Assembly (NCBI GenBank): GCA_947172415.1
Contig: OX359193.1
Span: 7,496,501 to 7,560,500 of the forward strand
DNA: 64,000 nucleotides
Reading direction: 5' to 3'
From: Chondrosia reniformis
Taxonomy: Eukaryota; Porifera; Demospongiae; Chondrillida; Chondrillidae
The notes under the pieces are model-generated. The model ran no database searches and was not told the DNA's origin. It saw only the letters and a program-made list of their open reading frames with translations. Both the position numbers and the translations under genes were made by a program. Below, one piece after another: positions 5,672 to 64,000 of the stretch (position 1 is its first letter; every line of letters starts with the position of its first letter).

Positions 5672-8053
5672 ATGTCTCGCAAGAATCATGAATGTGAGAT
5701 GGGGGAATACTGCCCCACCTGTAACCTAATCACATGCTCTGGGTTTCTCCAACAGCGGCTGAGGTTCGGTAGATGGAAGAGAAGATGGTTCAAGCTTTAT
5801 CAGAAAGGGAGACTTCTTATATATGAGGATGAGACAGCCAAGACCCTAGTATCTGATATAGATACAGGTTTGAATTGCTACGATGTCCAGCACGGTCTTC
5901 AAAGTGGAAAATTTCCACCTGGTATTCCCAGAATATGCTCCTTTGTGGTCATATTAAGCAAGACAAAATTATATCTATATGCAACTTCAGTTGGAGATAC
6001 TGTTAAATGGGTAAAGGCATTGAAGGCCTCCTCCAAGGTAGTTGCTAGGCGACAACAGGAACTAGAGCAAATGCAGCACCACCTTTCCATCTATCGTGAA
6101 TCTGGATTGGAGGCGGCACAGGTAGCCTCTGGAATAAAAACTAACCAGTCATTCACTTGCACCAACAAGGTAGCCAAAGCTTCACTAACTACAACTGTTA
6201 CTCCAAGAAGTCGTGATGCTGGCACATCCACAAGAGAGGATAATTTACCTTTTAAAGCAATCAGAAATAAGGAAGTTTCGCTTTTATCAGATGTACAGAG
6301 CGAAGAAGTCACTATGTCCACCTCTAACCTTCCATCTAGCTTTCAAAGACATGATCTATACTCTTCCAACCGCAAAAGAAAAGAAGCTTTACAACATTTG
6401 CAGAAAAAAATCTCAAAGGCACCTGAGATGGAAGATCTGAAAGAAAGAGAGAACAAAGAACCTATATCTAAAACTCGACTCAGAGCTGTAGCTGTGCCAG
6501 GAATACCTTTCAGTGCCAGTCAGGTAGTTGGGGACAGTGATATTGCCTTTCCAAGCGATGACAGAGCCCATTTTTATGCACTGACAGAACCGTTAAATGA
6601 TGACCACAAATATATGACTGTCTCACCGAGTATAGAAGGCACCCATCACTCTGCACCTGACAGTCACACTGCTAGGAGTAAGGAAGATCTATCACATGCA
6701 TCCCAACAAGACCTTACCACAAACTATATTTATTCAACAGTTAAGAAGAACAAGCCATCATATTCTGCTCCATTGTCAAAGAGGATATCACCTGAAGGAT
6801 CCTCAAGGAACGAGGATTGTGGAATATTAGGTGAGCAAGAAGCAAGATTGAGAACGCAGAGTGTAGGAGATTTTACTTCAGCCAACTACAGCAGCAGTGC
6901 TGTTGAGTCTAAAACATCTGACATACCAAGATATTCAAGTATGCTTCTGAATGGACCTGGGTCATCGTTCCAGGACAACCAAGCTCCAAACCGTACTACA
7001 TCACGTAAACCTGGACATTTTTTCATGTCCAAAACTGATGCACAAGCCACTGTACCAAATGGGAATGGGAAGGGTGCTAGCAGAGACTCAAGAGGTGGTA
7101 ATGTCCATGAAGTTATCAGCCATCATCAACCGTGGTACAATGAAGCTAGCTCAAGTCAGAAACCATCTCATTACCGCAGGACAGGAGTCAAGTATAAGAG
7201 CTCCAGTCCGTCTCCCAGGATACCGGGTCAGTCTCCCAGGATACCAGCTCAGTCTCCCAGGATACCAGCTCAGTCTCCGAGGATACCAGCTCAGTCTCCC
7301 AGGATACCAGCTCAGTCTCCCAGGATACCAGCTCAGTCTCCGAGGATACCAGCTCAGTCTCCGAGGATACCAGCTCAGTCTCCGAGGATACCAGCTCAGT
7401 CTCCGAGGATACCAGCTCAGTCTCCGAGGATACCAGCTCAGTCTCCGAGGATACCAGCTCAGTCTCCGAGGATACCAGCTCAGTCTCCCCCGAGGATACC
7501 AGCTCAGTCTCCAAGGACACCAACTTGGTCTCCCAGGATACCAACTCAGTCTTCCAATCAAATGAAACTTCACAGACAATCAGAGCAGTGCAGCAATGAG
7601 ACAAAACTTGTAAGCCATGTTATTATGTGACAAGGGTTTCTTCTAACTGCATTGAATTATCTTTGAAATATTTCATCTTGTGATCACTTTTGAGCATCTA
7701 AGGAAGCATTTTTGGTTGGATCCTGAGGGAAGTCCTGGATTAAAGCATTCAACAAGAAGATCAAACCAAACTTTGAAATCTTTAGATGCTTTTAAAAGGA
7801 GATTGAGAGATGAATCTTTTCAAAGATACAGTAAATCACTTATTGTCCTATTTATTGGAAAACAATAAATACTATGAATACATATAGTGAATAAAATTAT
7901 GTATCTTTTATGTAGCTAATTAATGAAATATATCGGAGAGGAACCATAAATGATGATGGAAACCCAGTCATATCATACAAGATATTAAGACAGGAGTCAG
8001 GACGCCAATTTAGTGATATCTTAAAAGTAATCAAAGATGCAGCCAAGGAGAAG
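5672..8053 (+). CDS. PH domain / SPRIPAQ repeat / costars-domain protein
   Basis: Exon 1, 5672-7609, is a single long frame (646 codons). An N-terminal PH domain (about residues 20-125, with RWKRRWFKLYQ in the first strands) is followed by a low-complexity region and, at about 512-625, a tandem SPRIPAQ heptad. Donor 7610 (GTAAGC) joins in phase 0 to 7916-8053, which encodes the first half of a costars domain (LINEIYRRGTINDDGNP, then DILKVIKDAAKEK). Costars domains occur in the actin-linked ABRA/STARS and ABRACL proteins, so a membrane-to-actin adaptor role is likely but inferred. The second half of the domain (usually a TY.GELL strand) is not found downstream; readthrough gives KVSY and then a stop at 8096-8098, while a possible exon at 8174-8377 is in frame but unlike costars. 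If donor 7610 is skipped, a stop at 7628 and AATAAA at 7864-7869 would yield a PH-repeat isoform. A related gene lies at 61017-64000. Confidence 0.75.
7207..7556 (+). repeat. Coding minisatellite, 21-bp unit (SPRIPAQ)
   Basis: About 16 near-identical 21-bp units encode SPRIPAQ heptads inside the PH-costars gene. The array keeps frame except for a 3-bp insertion that adds a Pro (SPPRIPAQ) near 7487. Long open frames on the other strand and frames are by-products of the repeat. Confidence 0.95.
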
Positions 8054-8640: not shown

Positions 8641-11600
8641 TCATATTTTGCTTTTCACTGTCTTTCTCTTCTTGCTGGGAGGAATTTCAGAGTCATGTCT
8701 TTCAATTGGAGCTGCACTGATTCCCTTGATGAAGGGTTTTACCAATGAAATGGTCACTTTTGAACTTTGAATGTTAGATTTCTCAATACACAGCTGAACC
8801 TTAAGCTTGTCAAAGGAATGAAAAACATGGCTGCCGACAGTGAGGGTAAAATTAAGTTCATTATAAACTAATTTAGGATAGTCTCCTTTTGTACCGTCTC
8901 TTTGAGTATTATTGAAGAAGATGTGGCCTTCATAACCATATTTGGGGAGGAGGACCTGAAGAGAATTTCTCTTTGGCATTAGAATAAATGCCTCCTCTTC
9001 GACTGTCCTGTCTTTGAAGAAGAGTTGAGTATGCAGGTGTACAGAGGCCCTCTGGGCATACTGAGCCATTTTATGTCTTCTGTTCAGCCGGTCGCAGAGA
9101 TGATGCGTTCTTTCCCTGTCCAGCAGATCTGGATAGGTACTGTCTGCGCCAATGGCAGCTGCTAACAGCCTGTGTACGATAATGTCGGCATACCTACGTA
9201 TGGGTGATGTGAAGTGGGTGTATATGGGTGTGGCAAGGCCATAGTGAATGAAGTTAGCTTCCGGTAACTTGCCTGAGCTAAAATAGAGAGCCTGCATCAT
9301 ACATCTTGTACAAAGGATACGAAGTAGAGTGTTAAAATATGGCTCTTTAGGGATATTTGCCTCCGATAGCGATGAAGCAAGGGATTTGGCTGTTTCCACG
9401 GCAATGTGAACACCTTTACTTAGGCCCACTTTAACAAGAACATGATAATTAGAAGGTGGGGGAGCAGGGTGACGACGTAGCAAGGCACAATGGGGAAATT
9501 CCTTAAAGATTCTCTTGGCCACAGAAATATTGGCTAGAAGCATAAATTCTTCAACTAAAGAATTGGTGTCCTTCAAATCTTTCATCTCAATGTCAATGGG
9601 ATCATGTGTCTCGCTGTCCATCTCAAAACGTACCTCTGGTGAAGCCAGAGTGAGAGCTCCTTCCTCTATTCTCTTCTGTTTCAGATTCTTAGCCAAACCA
9701 TTTAGCTTGCGCAAGGATAGAGTCAAAGAATCATTTTGTCTTGCATCATCAACTTTCATTTGTGCCTCTGCGTAAGTGAATGCCTTTCTTGACTTGATAA
9801 TGCTCTTTGCAAAGGCTGTAGACACTATATCTGCTTGTGGTGTAAGCTCCCAAATACAGGAGAAAGCTAGTCTCTCCTCTCCTTCCCTAAGAGAACACAA
9901 ATTTGAGCTGAGGAGTTCAGGAACCATGTCAATGCGCTTATCACAAAGGTAGACGGTTGTACCCCTGTTAGATGCTTCCTTGTCTAGAGATGTGGATGGC
10001 CTTATAAAGTAAGTAACATCGGCTATATGCACGCCAACCTCAAAGTTTCCTCCTTCTAGCTCCCTACAATGCAGTGCATCGTCAATATCAGTGCAACCCT
10101 GAGGATCAATGCTACAAACTTCCAGAGACACAAGGTTGGTTCTTTTTTGTCTTTCTTCCTCAGGTATGGTCCAGGGCACATTTGGCAGGTCTGCCAACAC
10201 TTCAGAGGAGAAGGGCTGATAAGGAACACTGTGCTCAAGGAGAAGAACCTCATTCTCAGCGGCCTTAGCTCCAATATCCCCCAAAATCCTCACCAAATGA
10301 CCCCTCGGTAACCTTGACGACCTTGGCCACTCATCAATGTTGACTACAATTCTCTTTCCAAAGAGAAGGCTAGCTTGCTTTGTAATTATACCAACAGGAG
10401 GAATCCTACTATCAGCTGGTACAAATTTGTGACTTGTCGCATCTGCATTGGTTAATGGTAGAAGTGTGCCACAATATGGCCGCCATTTTCTCTTGATTAT
10501 TCCAACGACTTTACCTGTTGGTTGAATGAGAGAGATGTCAACATGTGATGACTGAGTAACATTAGTTTCCATTAACTCTTCAGAGATATCTTCTTCTTCA
10601 CCAGTCACTTCCTGTCGAGCCAGTGCTTCATTGTCCTCCACCAGTCCTGAAGGTGTAGTCCACTCACTCTCTGGATACATCTCAATAGCTACTACATCAC
10701 TATCCACAGCACGATTCAAGTCCCTCACTCCTTTAATCAACACCCACTGCTCCTCTCCAGGCACAGCTACGTGTCCCTCCCTGTGTGTCTCCCTGGAGCC
10801 ATGAAAGACGCCTTGACTCAGCCGGCCACTCTGAATGCCCTGCTTAATGGCAATCATTGAAAGGTGCTCTTGATACAGACTCTTCCTACTGTTGCCAGGA
10901 GTCACGCTACCATCACTATCAGTCTGGTTTGATTGGCTGAATCTTGTCAGTCTTTCTACCAAGAAAGGATTCCCAGAGATACTGGCGACATATTCATAAA
11001 CCCCAAATGCGGCCATGCCATCTTTCTTAGCCTTCCTTACGTTATCTACATCTTCAGACAGTAACACTACTTTTGTTCCTATGGCTACTTTTGACTTATT
11101 CAAATGCTCATTGTACCAGTCAACCGACTTCCTAATGGCCCTGTCATTCTGATCATTAGGGGATTCCCCCTGCATTCTCTCCTGGTAAGTCTCTTGGTGA
11201 TGCTCATTGCAGAACACATAAAAGTTCTTGTCTTTCTGGCCAGTCAACTCCCTCAATCTATGAACAAGAAACACAGACAGGTAAAATGACTAAAAGTAAA
11301 AGATCTTTACAATTTGATACTTTGTTAATACACAAGAGACGAAAGCAGAATAGAAATCGAGAAGAAGTGACTGTAACTGCGTGTGCCAAGGTTGTGTAAA
11401 TACAGTAAGTCTTAACGAACCTTTTGTAAGCAGATAGGTTCTGATGCTTCACTTCATTAAGGACTGTTTGTAAAATGACCACATTGCGAATGTACTCGTC
11501 CTCTAGAAAGTCCAACTGATGCAGAGCAACATTAGTGTCCGGAACAAGGTAGTGAGAGAAGGCGCACACCTTTGCAATGGAGGCAGGATTGGGTTCCAAC

Positions 11601-20844: not shown

Positions 20845-23800
20845 ATGTCCGAGAATTCGAAGGAGGAATTGGAGCGCCAGGTGAGATGCCAATAAACCCA
20901 ACACCTTCCTGATAAGGTACGAGTACATATCAGTTTGTTTGCGTGTAGCTGGAGAATGCGTCGAGCTACGAGGAGAGAGCCTCCATTCGTAAAGCTCTTC
21001 GAGAATTGAAGAAAAGCAAGGGAGATGCAGCATCCAAATCTCTTGCATCTAGAAGGGGAAGTTCTGGCTACAGAAGGTTTACAGGAGGTGTGGGGGTCTC
21101 AGGGACTTATGTCCCATCTCAGAAATCAGTTCGTTTTCATATCAAGCAGTGTATGACTTGTATTATATTTGATTGTGTGTGTTTACTAGTTTACTGGAAG
21201 TCTCAAAAGTGTCGATGAAGGAAAAACAGTTAGTAGTGCGAAAAGGGAGATATCTCCTTCGTTTACTCTAAGTTCTCAGCGCAAAATCGATGATAGGAAG
21301 AAAGACCATCACTCAACGGTGATTCAACAAACTCCACCGGACAACACTCCATCAATTCAGCCAGATGAAACTCCATCAACCCAACCAGATGAAATTCCAT
21401 CAACTCAGCCAGACCAAACTCCATCACCTCAGCCAGATGAAATTCCATCAACCCAACCAGATGAAATTCCATCAACTCAGCCAGACCAAACTCCATCACC
21501 TCAGCCAGATGAAATTCCATCACCTCAGCCAGATGAAATTCCATCACCTCAGCCAGATGAAACTCCATCGCCTCAGCCAGATGAAATTCCATCACCTCAG
21601 CCAGATGAAACTCCATCGCCTCAGCCAGATGAAATTCCATCACCTCAGCCAGATGAAACTCTATCACCTCAGCCAGATGAAATTCCATCAACTCAACCAG
21701 ATGAAACTCCATCAACTCAGCCAGATGAAACTCTATCACCTCAACCAGATGAAACTCCATCAACTCAGCCAGATGAAACTCCATCAACTCAGCCAGATGA
21801 AACTCCATCACCTCAACCAGATGAAACTCCATCAACTCAACCAGATGAAACTCCATCAACTCAACCAGATGAAACTCCATCAACTCAACCAGATGAAACA
21901 CCATCAACTCAACCAGATGAAACTCCATCAACTCAACCAGATGAAACTCCATCAACTCAACCAGACACAAAAGTTACTAAATTTGCAAAAGCTGATGCTA
22001 GGGAAGAAACAGATTTTCATTTTCGTCTGCGTTCTAAAACTGAAGTTAAGAAACGGAAGCCTGAAAGTAAGCATTCAGCACCAGAACCTAAAGCTGAATT
22101 TCAAAACTTTAAGCTCCGCTCGACCCCTAAATCAGCTGCATCAAACCATCCATCTCCATGGAAACATGATGTGCCAAAGAAATGGGAGCCAGAGTTTCAG
22201 AAAGTTGAGCTTAAGAAGACTGCCTCTCACAGACCCAGAGCGGCCACAGTTGCTACATCAACTCGACCTCAAGTTAGACATGCATTGAGACGAATGTAGT
22301 CCATAAATATTAGATGCGTAATGCAACATTGCCTAAATATCACAAAGTGAACAAGTGTTTGGGAATTAACCTTGAGTTTTGTTTCTTTGCCCTCCCACTA
22401 TGCCATGACTATATACCACAATTATGCAATATTCATTATACCTCTAATATATACAAGATTATATGTCAACAGCTTTCATTGTCTAATAATTAGCTAGTTG
22501 GTGAGTAATTCACAGACAATGACTCAACTACCCACAATATCTGTTCTCCTTAATGAAGGTACATAAGAGGGATTTTGCAACTCCTGAACCGAAAAGTGGT
22601 GAGGGAGAGGGAGATTTGAGTATTACTGAGCTGGAAAGCTGCTTGAACCAGTTTGTCAACCGTGTTCTCAAGTATCCTCTGGGCAGACAGAAGCTAGCAG
22701 ACCTGTCTAAGGAACCTAAAGTACTGTGGTCAGTTTGATGTACCATGATCTTGCACATGTGTTTAACCAAGAAGAGTGTCAGTTGTTTAATTTACAGAAA
22801 TATCCTGATTTTTTACTATAATATCTTGACTATATCCTTTTAGTTTACTGAAATATCCTGACTATATCCTTGTATATCATTATCATTGAACTCTGGATAT
22901 TACCCCTGCCCACTCATGTCTCCTGAGGAGCACAATGAGCTAATGGTTAGAACCAAAGTTTGCTTGATGGGAACCAGAGTCTCCCCCTAGCCACTCAAAA
23001 AGATGGTTGAACCATAGACAGCTGTTTTTTTCCTTATTAGGACTCATCAGTATTGCATACGATTGAGGTTTAATGGAGAGGGGTAATATCCAGAGTTCAA
23101 TGTTTTAAGATTGGCTTATATCTTAAAGTTCCCCTATATCCTTTAGTTTACTGAAATAACCTGATAATATCCTCATTGTATAATGAGATATCCAACTGAT
23201 ATCCTTTTAGTTTACTAAGATATCCTAATGATGTAGTGAACTGATAAACAAAAGTGTTCCTGGAACAGTGGATCTGCGTGCCCTGACTGTTATAAAGCCA
23301 GGTGACAGCCGTTCAAAGCAGCAAGCAGCTAGGGAAGAGAATATGACATTAGCTGTTGAATCTGCCAGATCCATCGGGATCTATGTGAAGGATGAAACAC
23401 CCAACCTGTTGCTAGGGGGTGATCCCTTAGCAACCAGAGAGTTTTTCATGGGCCTTGTTAAGGTATGTTTACCTGTGTTGTTGCCCAAGATTGTTTGTGC
23501 TTACTGAAATCTCACACTACCTCAGGCAAAAGCTGTTCACATGCCAGCAATGAGGGATGCACCAGAGGGAACATTCCAAAACCCAATTCTCATTTTTGCT
23601 GTTTTTGGAATAAAACCTTTATCTCAGAATACGAGCACTGACAGTTTCACTGATGGCCCAAATGTTATGCTCACTCATAAGGATGATGGGCTGAATAAGA
23701 GAGAAGACAGATCTTATCAGAGGGAAGAGAAGCCGTATCGTAGAGAAGACAGATTACGTCAGAAAGAAGAGAGGTCACATCAAAGAGTAGAGAAACCCAG

Positions 23801-47028: not shown

Positions 47029-49916
47029 ATGGCGTCAACGAGACCAAAGGTAAATGGAAATGAACAATAAGGTCATTTTTCTGTGTCCTCTACTAATAAT
47101 AGCTTGCTTGAAGTGTTTACTGCAAATAGATATATCGTCTAAAGTAATTTTCAAGCTGCAGTTCTGCAGAAATCATAGTATTTGTAGTTACTGTATTATC
47201 ATTTGCATACACAGTCACGACCGTCAACAGTTCAGTATGATCCGGAAGAACTTTTTACCAAACACGAGCGTATTGGTAGAGGATCGTTTGGAGAAGTTTT
47301 TAAAGGGTAAAGGTTTCTTTAGTGTGATTACGTATGTGAAGAATATCTTGTTGAGATTGATTGTTTGAGATCGAACCATCGACTATATATGATCAGGTCA
47401 TAGGTTATCTATACGATGTAACTAATATTTTCCATTTCCAGAATCGATAACAGAACGAAGCAAATCATTGCAATCAAGATTATAGACTTGGAGGAAGCAG
47501 AAGATGAAATTGAAGACATTCAGCAGGAGATTACTGTTCTCTCACAGTGTGACAGTCCTTATGTGACCAGATATTATGGATCCTACCTCAAAGGCACAAA
47601 ATTGTGGATTATAATGGAATACTTAGGAGGTGGATCTGCTCAAAGATTGGTAGGGCTGCTTAGTAAGGACCGTCCTTACTAGCAAACCAATGGTGTGACT
47701 GGGTGTGTGTTTATAACATTGTTTTCTTGCTTCCACAAAGAGAAAACGTGGTCCATTCACAGAGAACCAAATTGCTACTATTTTAAGAGAAATTATACGA
47801 GGTTTACTGTATTTGCACAGGCAAAGAAAACTTCACAGGGACATTAAGGGTTAGAATTCAATTATAGTAATAATCTACCCCTTAAGGGGAATTTCTAAAC
47901 AAAGATAGACTAGCTCCCAAAATTTTGTTTGTTTTGCCTGTTTCTCTGGAGATTTATGCAGTGTGTAATGTATATATATAGTAAAATTGTAAATAATTGT
48001 GTCACTTTCTGACCGCATTTGGGGGCAAAGGTGAATATCACATCCCACAGATGCTGACATCATAACTGGATTGTGTTATCAGTTTCAGGAGGTCTTGTGT
48101 CGGTATATATGTCTTCCCCTTGTATGTTGCCATAGCTGCCAATGTACTGCTCTCAGAACAGGGAGCAGTCAAGCTGGCTGACTTTGGAGTTGCTGGTCAG
48201 TTGACAGAGACACTGAATAAGTGTCATACATTTGTGGGTACTCCATTTTGGATGGCGCCTGAAGTTATAAAGCAATCTGCGTATGACACAAAAGCAGATA
48301 TCTGGTCATTGGGAATCACAGCTTTAGAGCTTGCAAATGGCGATCCTCCATTGTCAGATCTGCATCCTATGAAAGCCTTGTTGCACATTCCTCAGAGAGA
48401 CCCTCCTAAACTATTGGGAAATTATTCCAAGGCATTGAAAAACTTTGTAGCTACATGTTGTGTGAAAGACCCAGTTGAAGTGAGGTTTACAATTAAATAA
48501 ATGATGCTTCATTTTTATGTTTTCAATTCAATTTTCAGCGACCTAGCGCAGCTGAGCTATTAAATCATAAATTTATCAAGAGCTACTCTAAGAAGACTTC
48601 AATTTTAGTAGACCTGATTAGCAGATACAATAGATGGATTAGGTCTGGTCAGGTAGACTCTGATGATGATGATGATGATATTAATAGGTTAGCCAAATAG
48701 CACAATGGAGCATTGCTGTGGCAGTTGTAGCTCAGTGGTAGGGCACTGGTGGTCACTGTGCCAGCTGTCCTTTGTTCAATTCCCAGCAACTGCTTCTTTG
48801 GTTTTTTTTCTGTCTTTATGGTGATTCTACTTGTGGTTTGATTATTATAGTAGAAAGATAGCACTAGCTAATAATAGAGAGGTGACCCTATATCATGATG
48901 TATTAAATATATATAGGTAATTCAATTTGTACATTGTAAGGAAGTGTCTACATCTCAGAGAGTAACTTAAGGAAGGTGTCACTGTAAACATTACTTGTAT
49001 TATATGAGAACTAAACATCAGTCCTTCTAAATGTGATTTTTTACACATTGCAGAGGACCAACTGACTACAATATCTATGACGATGATGATGAAGGATGGT
49101 TATTTGAAACTGTAAGGCAAAGAGGAATGGTGTCACCTTTAAAGAATCCTGCTCTTGTCAATGGCTTTCCCGAAGTGAAAAATACTCCAAAATTTACAAC
49201 ATCCCAAAGAGAGCCAAATTTCCACCTTAAAACAGATGATAGTCCAATAGATCTCCCCGATGTAAGCTTACCAACATGTCACCTGTGTATCTACACTAAT
49301 GATTAGTAGTGCGTTGTGCATTAGTCAAATAAGAATTATTAATTTACCTCTGTTCACAGATCTCCTGTCCTTTCTTTTTGTCTGTAATTTTAGACGGCAA
49401 TGTCGCAGTCTCCAGCTGTTAAAACATCCAAGTGCATGCAGACAATAATCAAACCAGTTTTACAGCAGGTAACCACTTTGCTGATAGTCTCTTAGTCTCA
49501 TTTAATGAGTATGTATTGGTGTACTAGATTAAGGAGAATGCAGCCTATGAGAATATGGATGATTTAGATGCCATCGATGAGCTAATGAAAGGTTTTGAAT
49601 TTGCAGAAGTGTCCAGTCCTGGTGTCACTGACCAAATGGTCCATTACATGAAATTGCACATATCAAGGTACGTATCAATGCATGCACCTTGTATTACCCC
49701 TCTCTCCTTCACATACTGTCAATGAGTAAGAGCTATATATGAAAATATTACCAATGTGTGTAGTTATGTAGATAATATTAATTGGTAAGAAATATAATAT
49801 TGTAATGTAGTTCTTTTGTTGTACTCCTGCTATGTGCATTTCTTCTTTTTAGATCTTCAGCCAAACTAAGAATGGGAAATGATGTTACCAGTTTATCCAG
49901 TCTAACTGCTCTCTAA
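47029..49916 (+). CDS. STK24: GCKIII (MST3/MST4/STK25-type) serine/threonine kinase
   Basis: Ten exons: 47029-47049, 47215-47306, 47442-47649, 47741-47849, 48136-48479, 48539-48687, 49054-49261, 49394-49468, 49528-49667, 49853-49916; 469 residues. A short N-terminus then [20 protein letters not shown], the Lys site in [12 protein letters not shown], catalytic [19 protein letters not shown] and activation loop [17 protein letters not shown]. The kinase part strongly resembles STK24/25/26, which act in the striatin/STRIPAK complex and with CCM3/PDCD10 in cytoskeleton and Golgi polarity. The C-terminal part has an Asp run (a GAT microsatellite at 48659-48680) and a GWLFETVR motif like the WIFTIR of vertebrate GCKIII, followed by a divergent, presumably CCM3-binding tail. 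It is one pre-duplication GCKIII gene by inference. Intron 6 carries a tRNA-like sequence. Confidence 0.93.
48721..48793 (+). ncRNA. tRNA-like sequence (pseudo-tRNA or tRNA-derived SINE head)
   Basis: A 73-bp segment folds as a cloverleaf: 7-bp acceptor stem GCAGTTG/CAACTGC, A-box TAGCTCAGTGGTAG, D stem GCTC/GGGC, a 5-bp anticodon stem with two wobble pairs around a 7-nt loop reading CAC at the anticodon, and B-box GTTCAATTC. The T stem has two mismatches and there are two bases instead of one before the anticodon stem, so a working tRNA is doubtful. It sits on the sense strand in GCKIII intron 6. Confidence 0.5.
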
Positions 49917-60573: not shown

Positions 60574-61016
60574 CACTACTTACATAGGCTCCTTCATTGC
60601 TAGTTAATGTCACTCAGTTTATTCTGATTATATTTCCATTATTTAAACTTAGCATATTTACTGATTAGCAAAACTTTAGGTCTTTTTATTATTAAATTGA
60701 TCATACATTATTATAGTAATATTCATATGCTACTATATATATATAATTGTCATCAATTCTACAACTGTCCATTTGTACACATGCTACAGTTGATTATCTT
60801 GTATTTGGGTTCCATGTAAAAAGATTTAATTTCATTCTCGATCATGAATGTGCAAGAGTATATTATTCATTATCCATTCGCTTTTCCTATATGTTTAAAT
60901 ATTTGTATTATCTCACCCTAGTTATGTATGTGGACATTTAATTTACTTAATCAACTTGTATAAGATATTATATTTATTAAAGAAAAAGAAAAATATATTA
61001 ACAAAATAATTAGTTT
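60574..61016. other. 3' flank between convergent AMMECR1 and PH-costars-LIM genes
   Basis: Very AT-rich; no coding signal on either strand. Confidence 0.45.
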
Positions 61017-64000
61017 CTAAAGTTTGCTGTAATCTCCTTTCTCCATGTAAAGCCTTTCGTAATGAGGGATACAGTAGAATTTGTTATTGATAGTGGCAAA
61101 GGCGCTTGGTGTAAGTTTTTTGCCACATTGCTCACACCTAGTATATAAAAGGAAATGATTATCATTATAACATACATTAGATTAGATTATTCATTTTATG
61201 TACAATAAAAATATTTAGACATTCAGAAAGGTATGAATGTACTTATCTACAGTTTAATCAGCTGAACAATAAAACTGTTTTTTTTTTCGAAATTTACAGC
61301 AGCTGAACCAACTGACTGGGATTGTACAGTACCTCTCACATCATTGAATTACTCACTTGAAACAAGCTTTGTGCATGGCTTTGTCATTGGCTGCCACAAA
61401 CTCTGTTGCATACACACTACGGCTGCAAATATAGCACTATATAAGGGAATAGATAGTATACATACATTGTCTATCCTCAACAAATCCAATGTATACTTCA
61501 AACTTACTTTTGCATTTCCTGTAAATGCTGTCCCAGCTGAAAAACCAGATGTTTTCTTCCTTGCTCCATCTGACAAGTCTGTCCTTTTCAGTCCCTTGGG
61601 TTTGGTAGTAGTGTATTTATCTACAGCAGAGTCCTCTATGCTTTCTGTCAGTAGTGTGATAACCACGTGATCATGGTACTTCTGAAACAACAGCTCTCCG
61701 TCATATGTCAACACCTTTGAAAAAAATGTCACCATTATATACCATATAGACTAGTATGGCCGCATAACTTGGCATACCTTATGTTTCTTTGCTGTTTTTA
61801 AGATACCTGACAATGCTTCAAACTCATTGACAGTTTCTTCAAAAAGAATTCCAAACTCTACTTCCCATTGATCATTTTCATTTTTCCTTCCAAGACGCAT
61901 GATTTCATGAATAAGCTAAACAGTTGGAAAATTGCAATGCCGTGAATGCTTATATATATAGCAAGATTAGACTAGTATAATTAACCTTTCTTATTTCATT
62001 GTCCACCCACTTGGCTGCAGCAAGTACCCTATCCTTATTCTCATCCTCCTTCTCCCAAGGCATTGGTTCACTCTTTACTGTCACTGTGCTAGTACTATAA
62101 AATTTTGTCATACCTTTCTTCTCATCTTCTTTGGGTAAGCTACCTGACTCTTGAGGCTGTATTTTCATTTGCTTATGTGATTGGTAGGACACCTTCACTG
62201 GTGGTTCACTGGTACGTCTGTGCCTCTTTGAGCCCAAGTTACTGGCTCCGGGTAAAGGCGGAGGACTGAGTGATCCAGCAGCTCTAAAAGCATTCACTTT
62301 ATCCAGAACACTACTTGATGTACTTACTTCAGATTCAGGTACACTAGATAGAGCCATGGTAGGGTGTACAATGCTATCATATTTAGTAGGGCTGACTACA
62401 TCTACTTTGGTGTTTTCTTGTAAATCTTCAAAGATAGTAGCCTCTTGGTGCTTTTCTTTGTCCTGCTTGATTCTTTGTAGGCCTATCTCCATCTTCCTTT
62501 CCTGAGAAGCTGTGATTGGTTGCTCTCCCAAAACTTCCTCTCCTCCTTTGATAAATTCCTTTTCAAGTATTTTCTCATCCTCTTGATCTCCAGGAGGCCA
62601 TGATTGTCTGCTCTTGCTTGTAGATCTTCTCTTGGTAGGTTTATCTACTTTACTTGACAAGCGATGCACTGCAGCTTCATAACTTTCCTCCATGACAGAA
62701 TTATGAAGATCCGTTGAAGGAGCAGCAGGAAACGTTGCAGTAGATTTGATTGGGGAAGTTGCAGTTACTGCAGTATGAGAAGGTGTGGTTGCAGTTATTG
62801 CAGCACCAGGAGGCGTGGTTGCAGTTATTGCAGCACCAGGAGGCGTGGTTGCAGTTATTGCAGCATCAGGGGGCGTGGTTGCAGTTATTGCAGCATCAGG
62901 GGGCGTGGTTGCAGTTATTGCAGCATCAGGGGATTTGGTTGCATTTGCATCATTGACTGAAGTAGCCACATGGAGCTTTGAAGTATTGGCGAAAACAACT
63001 TTAATGTTGCTTACAGAGATGGTGTTTACTTCTTTATCTATAGGTACTTCTTTGTTGTCATTTGGAATGCCATTATCTTGAGGTAAAGACGAAACGTCAT
63101 CTACCAAAGAGGACTGCTCCTGCGCTGCACCCTTTTCCATCTTCGACTTATAAAAGGGTGGCTCTTTGGAATTGGAGGATGCCTGGATCTCAAACGTCGA
63201 CATGCGGTCTTTAACACTAGCAGGGTGCAGCATTTCGGAGCCTCCAGAAAATACATCATACGGACTAGCGTACTCCTCCTTAGATGGTGTCACTCCTTCT
63301 GTTTTCTGCGTCTGTACAATCTTAGCAGTTTCATTGTCAGGCTTTACAGTGACCGTATCTTCACCAATTTCAATGATAGTCTCAGAAACAGACTAAAGGA
63401 TCCAAAAAACATTGTAAAATAAAAAATTAAATCAAGTGAATATCATATTTTGTATTAATTAAATTACTGACAATAATTTTAATTCATGATAGTGACATAC
63501 TTCTTGAACCTCTTGCGTTTCCATCGCCAAAATATGATGGATAGCTGGTTTCACGATCGTTCTATTCTCTTTGATCTCCGGAGGCAGCGATGCATTTTGT
63601 GGTTTAGTGGTCCAGTTAGACCGAAATCCCGTTCCAGCAGTCTTTTCCAAGACTTCCTGCAACTTCTCCTGCCATACCTCCGCATCTTCAAGCGACTCAA
63701 AGTAAAAATGATAAGTTCTATCTATATTGATCAGAGAAAGTCGCTGTTTATTTTCTACATTCTTAGGCCAATTTTTGCAGTAGTCATCGGTTGTGTCGTC
63801 TCCGTATTTGAACCTCAGACATGTTTCCTGCAGATCTACGAAGCGCCTCACATTTCTCATTAACTCGTCCGTATACAGGTACAAATGACCTTCGGAATTC
63901 AATACACCATAGCGACGATGCCACCGGGGCAGCAGTTTTCGATTGCGGGCTAGCTTGTAAATTACGCCTCTTTGTATAATTTTCACTTCATCCTTCTCCT
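61017..64000 (-). CDS. PH - disordered - costars - LIM domain protein (5' partial)
   Basis: Exons in the window: complement(63501-64000, 61986-63392, 61778-61915, 61508-61714, 61357-61436, 61017-61137), about 817 residues. The frame is open to the right edge, and the Met-like first codon visible is a GTG, so the start lies outside. Order: PH domain (VIYKLARN, LLPRWHRRYGVL, YHFYFESLEDAEVWQEKLQE); a long polar linker with an AITATTPPDA decapeptide array; a complete costars domain (LIHEIMRLGRK, EVEFGILFEE, AKKHK then VLTYDGELLFQKYHDHVVI); and a C-terminal LIM zinc finger (CYIC, HKACFKC, EQC, FYCIPHY). Costars and LIM both point to actin. The first costars exon starts and ends at the same points and phase (0) as in the PH-costars gene at 5672, marking them as paralogues. 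The LIM exon at 61436 was placed because its acceptor restores the first CxxC in phase. Confidence 0.85.
62783..62938 (-). repeat. Coding minisatellite, 30-bp unit (AITATTPPDA)
   Basis: About five copies of a 30-bp unit in the linker of the PH-costars-LIM gene, encoding AITATTPPDA/PPGA decapeptides on the minus strand. Plus-strand frames over it are artefacts. Confidence 0.92.

Follow-up and report, generated by a model that had tools for sequence, protein, structure and literature searches.

The window analysed here is the 64,000-nucleotide stretch C5:7496501-7560500 on chromosome 5 of the demosponge Chondrosia reniformis, the kidney sponge. Its high-coordinate end is occupied by a minus-strand gene whose six exons are spliced in our model into a single frame of 831 codons followed by TAG (Table 1). 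The ATG, at 64043 on the window scale, lies 43 bases past the window edge, and the TAG is at 61017; in chromosome 5 coordinates the gene covers about 7,557,517-7,560,543. On the 5' side of this ATG the frame is closed by an in-frame stop, and an alternative in-frame ATG upstream could add 15 residues. The five introns are all GT-AG, with lengths of 108, 70, 63, 71 and 219 bp and phases 0, 0, 0, 0 and 2. A polyadenylation-type signal follows shortly 3' of the stop; the only further AATAAA on the minus strand between 60800 and 64400 is at 63752, within exon 1. The preliminary description had joined a PH, a costars and a LIM domain into one protein across the junctions 63501/63392 and 61508/61436, and both prove to be GT-AG, in phase 0 and frame-keeping. 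With one frame running across six exons and five GT-AG introns, a single spliced gene is the simplest model, and there is strong support for a real and complete-looking gene encoding a PH-costars-LIM protein by predicted splicing.

Table 1. Exons of the PH-costars-LIM gene and other features in and beside the window (window-scale positions)
Feature	Position	Strand	Description
Exon 1	64043-63501 (in-window part 63501..64000)	-	acidic N-terminus and PH domain, residues 1-181
Exon 2	63392-61986	-	linker and first costars residues, residues 182-650
Exon 3	61915-61778	-	middle part of costars domain
Exon 4	61714-61508	-	costars end, then costars-LIM linker up to residue 765
Exon 5	61436-61357	-	LIM first part, ligands C766, C769, H787, C790
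Exon 6	61137-61017	-	LIM second part (C793, C796, C814, H817), C-terminus, TAG stop
AATAAA polyadenylation-type signal	60973..60978	-	shortly 3' of stop
30-bp tandem repeat, 5.8 copies	62758..62930	-	linker; encodes ten-residue TTPPDAAITA-like repeat
Second PH protein	5672-7627	+	Pfam PH
21-bp tandem repeat, 16.8 copies	7203-7556		SPRIPAQ repeats in linker of second PH protein
DIS3-type exoribonuclease	8644-11286	-	long single frame; PIN, cold-shock, RNB, S1 (Pfam)
Minisatellite, 24-bp unit	21346-21965		in long open frame
tRNA-Val	48720-48796	+	anticodon CAC
SH2/ankyrin/kinase gene (L003:831-4553)	64331-68053	-	outside window; SH2, ankyrin repeats, tyrosine-kinase-type domain

Several neighbours were recorded alongside this gene, among them a tRNA gene and a DIS3-type exoribonuclease. 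A second PH protein near the low-coordinate end scores 36.5 bits against Pfam PH, has no costars or LIM match by Pfam in its frame and finds PLEKHB2 as its nearest solved structure (E 7.6e-6 over a 71-residue part); its linker consists in part of tandem SPRIPAQ repeats. The minisatellites of the window, one of them in the linker of the PH-costars-LIM protein, lie in long open frames and have units of 24, 21 and 30 bp. Because these are multiples of three, gaining or losing repeats would lengthen or shorten the protein while keeping the frame. Just outside the window on the same strand is a gene for SH2, ankyrin-repeat and tyrosine-kinase-type domains (Pfam matches in two of the three pieces scanned), which we take to be SHARK-like. 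It ends 287 bp upstream of the PH-costars-LIM ATG, and shared transcription of the two genes is possible.

The domain order PH, costars, LIM holds as first proposed, and the costars and LIM domains are both complete. Costars (PF14705) spans residues 643-718 and matches profile positions 1-76 of 76 with 93.5 bits and an E-value of 8.7e-27 (cut-off 24), and LIM (PF00412) spans residues 766-821 with 45.8 bits and an E-value of 7.3e-12 (cut-off 22.9). Both exceed their Pfam thresholds, whereas PH (PF00169, residues 23-132) reaches 24.0 bits in the whole protein (E 5.9e-5), 1.1 bits below its cut-off of 25.1, and exceeds it at 29.9 bits (E 8.5e-7) when the region is scanned alone. All eight LIM zinc ligands are present, and their pattern recurred in none of 20,000 shuffles of the 831-residue protein. 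Apart from those of the LIM, the chain contains only the cysteines at 75 and 89, which fall in the PH region. A single-sequence AlphaFold model of the in-window PH exon had a mean pLDDT of 40.8, a quality too low for the model to be used.

PH and costars are separated by a linker of about 510 residues that is probably disordered. Its exon 2 part is rich in Ser, Thr, Ala, Glu, Lys and Pro, poor in aromatic residues and free of cysteine. A motif scan picked out two similar stretches in it, DRMSTF (residues 243-248) and DKVNAF (545-550), as a possible repeated linear motif. From the end of the costars domain, 113 residues, LIM included, remain to the C-terminus.

The closest solved match to the PH domain is that of PLEKHB2, also called evectin-2 (E 7.1e-6). 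In an alignment whose evectin-2 numbering was set from the Ile15-Leu16 pair, the sponge domain has Arg at the positions aligned with evectin-2 R11 and R18, and its loop is basic. R11 and R18 are basic positions belonging to the evectin-2 site. A third position differs, evectin-2 Lys20 being replaced by His. In the part of PMC8740049 available to us, the evectin-2 PH domain is described as binding phosphatidylserine and no phosphoinositide, with Lys20 required. The phosphoinositide-binding head of the preliminary description is therefore unsupported, since the closest solved PH domain is reported to bind phosphatidylserine and none of the phosphoinositides and its Lys20 is replaced in the sponge. 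In the same portion of that review, specific binding of phosphoinositides is stated to have been demonstrated for about 10% of the roughly 300 human PH proteins, with a number of PH domains having protein ligands instead. Both statements, like the His at the key evectin-2 lysine, speak for ordinary domain shuffling, in which the PH would bind a protein or nothing and the chain would serve as a cortical scaffold of a generic sort, its costars domain having no special function. The two aligned arginines and the basic loop weigh against this reading, which we regard as unlikely though worth keeping in view.

The best solved relatives of the LIM domain by sequence are CRP1 (E 2.9e-16), EPLIN (4.7e-14) and LIMD2 (6e-13). 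With EPLIN (LIMA1) and LIMD2 it shares a final His ligand and a KGxY tail, and it is identical to each at 23 of 64 positions. Identity to seven other LIM domains ranges from 29.7 to 37.7%. In an eight-row tree the sponge LIM fell, with weak support, outside a group (82/88) formed by EPLIN, LIMD2, the C3 LIM and the C4 LIM of the sponge genome, and it formed a polytomy with the CRP rows; the tree as a whole has no well-supported branch. In this tree its class leans away from EPLIN.

Inclusion of the LIM domain hangs on one acceptor, ending at 61437. As read from the sequence, an AG 14 bases downstream would lead to a stop and a protein with no LIM, and read-through of the 71-bp intron 4 would give a tail that also lacks it. 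The main isoform might be a LIM-less one, produced by retention of the intron at 61507-61437 or by splicing to the acceptor that ends at 61423, with PH-costars as the working protein and LIM as an occasional or regulated addition. The retained intron contains no in-frame stop and the downstream TTTGCAG resembles a good acceptor, features that speak for this arrangement. Of the two acceptors, however, the first alone preserves both the reading frame and the initial pair of LIM ligands, and a complete LIM signature across two further exons is unlikely to persist unused; we consider a LIM-less main product improbable and retain the full PH-costars-LIM protein as the preferred reading.

Among solved structures the costars domain is closest by sequence to ABRACL (2l2o, E 3.5e-18) and then to ABRA (2krh, E 4.8e-10), with identities of 52.6% (40/76) and 39.7% (29/73), respectively. 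A second copy in the same genome, on C2, is 46.2% identical (37/80). These sequences were aligned together, the PDB rows comprising only their HMMER-aligned parts. In 28 columns, a tally that includes gap columns, the two ABRACL rows agree with each other against ABRA; at these the sponge domain agrees with ABRACL 15 times, with ABRA four times and with neither nine times. It resembles ABRA in lacking a two-residue insert and in carrying the DHVVITLL end. From the tally and the shared traits, the costars domain is therefore to be classed, at the level of sequence, as ABRACL-like with a few ABRA-like traits.

A nuclear or DNA-binding role was also considered, with a costars winged helix that reads DNA and a LIM serving as a protein-binding zinc finger. 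According to the sections of PMC4682817 at hand, the ABD2 of rat Ms1 (ABRA) folds as a winged helix and, jointly with an AT-hook that precedes it, binds DNA, and costars binds neither DNA nor actin. The sponge protein has short basic clusters (KRR at 435, RKK at 748) that might serve a nuclear role, yet GRP, the AT-hook core, occurs nowhere in its 831 residues. Its α1–β1 loop reads GRKNEN, like the GSKNA of costars and unlike the ARHRR of Ms1 (PMC4682817, same sections), and an N-terminal PH suggests membranes. A DNA-binding function is, on this evidence, very improbable, and we return to a cytoplasmic protein.

The length of exon 2 adds a separate argument for a single transcript. Its open frame runs for 469 codons, and none of 20,000 first-order Markov copies contained an open frame of at least 468 codons (the longest in three frames was 216), so the frame is beyond chance. 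That the locus instead holds two adjacent genes or transcripts, one for a small protein with the PH and the other for a costars-LIM protein, is very unlikely, since although exon 1 stays open for a few codons into intron 1 before a stop (63462-63998, 179 residues in the window), an ATTAAA lies at 63483 in that intron and exon 2 has internal ATGs, the joining intron is short (108 bp), GT-AG, in phase 0 and without an AATAAA, and exon 2 is open from its acceptor with its first ATG well inside.

The rest of the genome (117,379,552 bases in 15 contigs) was searched as well. A genome note for C. reniformis, as far as its accessible portion goes, reports 117.37 Mb in 14 chromosomes plus a mitochondrion and names gene models for the species (GCA_947172415.1) from Ensembl Rapid Release and BRAKER3 (PMC12181767). 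The Costars profile, run exon by exon in six frames so that intron-broken copies could escape, matched two loci: the present gene and C2:953470-953700. The latter is a stand-alone ABRACL-type gene, a single 82-residue open frame that starts with MDVNHEIKLL. The LIM profile gave at least 44 matches in the genome, and the split LIM of the present gene was absent among the matches listed. With the sponge LIM itself as query there were 13 matches, two of them the query gene; among the rest, classed by eye, are exons of CRP-like type (C7), one of MICAL-like type (C4) and others of EPLIN-like type (C3). The C2 gene and the C3 exons therefore exclude two descriptions, in which the present gene would be the only costars gene of the sponge or its only EPLIN-like LIM gene. 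A PH domain on C6 is 31% identical to that of the present gene and scores 49.1 bits against Pfam PH.

Searches beyond the sponge returned no confirmed relative. Two pattern scans of contigs from prokaryote species gave 46 and 26 matches and a protein scan of viral contigs gave two pattern matches, none of them confirmed as related. A degenerate HKACFKC pattern run against the viral contigs hit five stretches, none LIM-like by eye after translation. In the open-licence PMC literature searched, no protein with PH, costars and LIM together was found described.

Published work on ABRACL and ABRA frames what the C-terminal half may do. In the part of PMC7922284 that we could consult, ABRACL reportedly associates with cofilin and slows cofilin-stimulated disassembly of F-actin. 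Purified ABRACL alone, by the same account, neither promotes polymerisation nor inhibits depolymerisation, and ABRACL does not interact with the ABLIM proteins that ABRA binds. The preliminary description had called costars actin-binding; F-actin binding by ABRACL is indeed reported there, as weak only and alongside the cofilin association, and it went undetected in another study (PMC7922284, same part). Loss of costars raised F-actin in Dictyostelium and lowered it in human cells, opposite results that leave the sign of the effect uncertain (PMC7922284, same part). The LIM proteins ABLIM-2 and ABLIM-3 act together with ABRA and regulate it, as set out in the available portion of PMC3520124, and for that reason a chain that carries both costars and LIM is functionally plausible.

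We propose that the six-exon gene encodes an 831-residue cytoplasmic adaptor that tethers an actin/cofilin regulator to membranes, a reading of the sequence to which we give about even weight. The PH domain would dock on an acidic membrane surface, with phosphatidylserine at least as likely a ligand as a phosphoinositide, and the long linker would let the C-terminal half reach cortical actin. There the costars domain, if it behaves as its homologue ABRACL does, would restrain cofilin-driven disassembly and touch F-actin weakly, and the LIM finger could contribute an actin-associated partner. The net effect would be actin stabilised at chosen membrane sites. The idea of a membrane-to-actin scaffold put forward at the outset agrees with the domain parts, and the scaffold role is what we infer from them.

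A broader and more tentative suggestion is that the gene represents a hitherto undescribed animal family of adaptors between membrane and actin, with costars between PH and LIM, in an animal without muscle. If so, the partnership of costars and LIM, which acts in trans for STARS and ABLIM, would be united in one polypeptide and brought to membranes by the PH domain. The protein would also allow a connection of membrane lipid with cofilin control and LIM-type actin adaptors to be tested in an early-branching animal, and it would raise the hypothesis that the costars module of STARS and the LIM modules of ABLIM are functionally paired.

Comparison with known systems places the protein between several of them. 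ABRACL and the Dictyostelium Costars protein share with it a complete costars domain. ABRACL is a small stand-alone protein, as an orthologue would be, whereas the sponge domain is embedded between PH and LIM in a chain of 831 residues. ABRA (STARS, Ms1) resembles the sponge protein in that a long, largely unfolded chain precedes the costars domain. It differs in having an AT-hook; an ABRA orthologue would carry GRP ahead of a C-terminal costars, and in the sponge the costars is followed by LIM and GRP is missing. The LIM partners of ABRA are supplied in trans in mammals, while the sponge LIM is in the same chain. To our knowledge, ABRA ends with its costars domain and has neither PH nor LIM, EPLIN has no PH or costars, and costars is otherwise either a free-standing protein or the terminal part of STARS; we know of no PH-costars-LIM order elsewhere. 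Multi-domain actin adaptors are already familiar as a kind, and this domain order is a candidate new variant of them.
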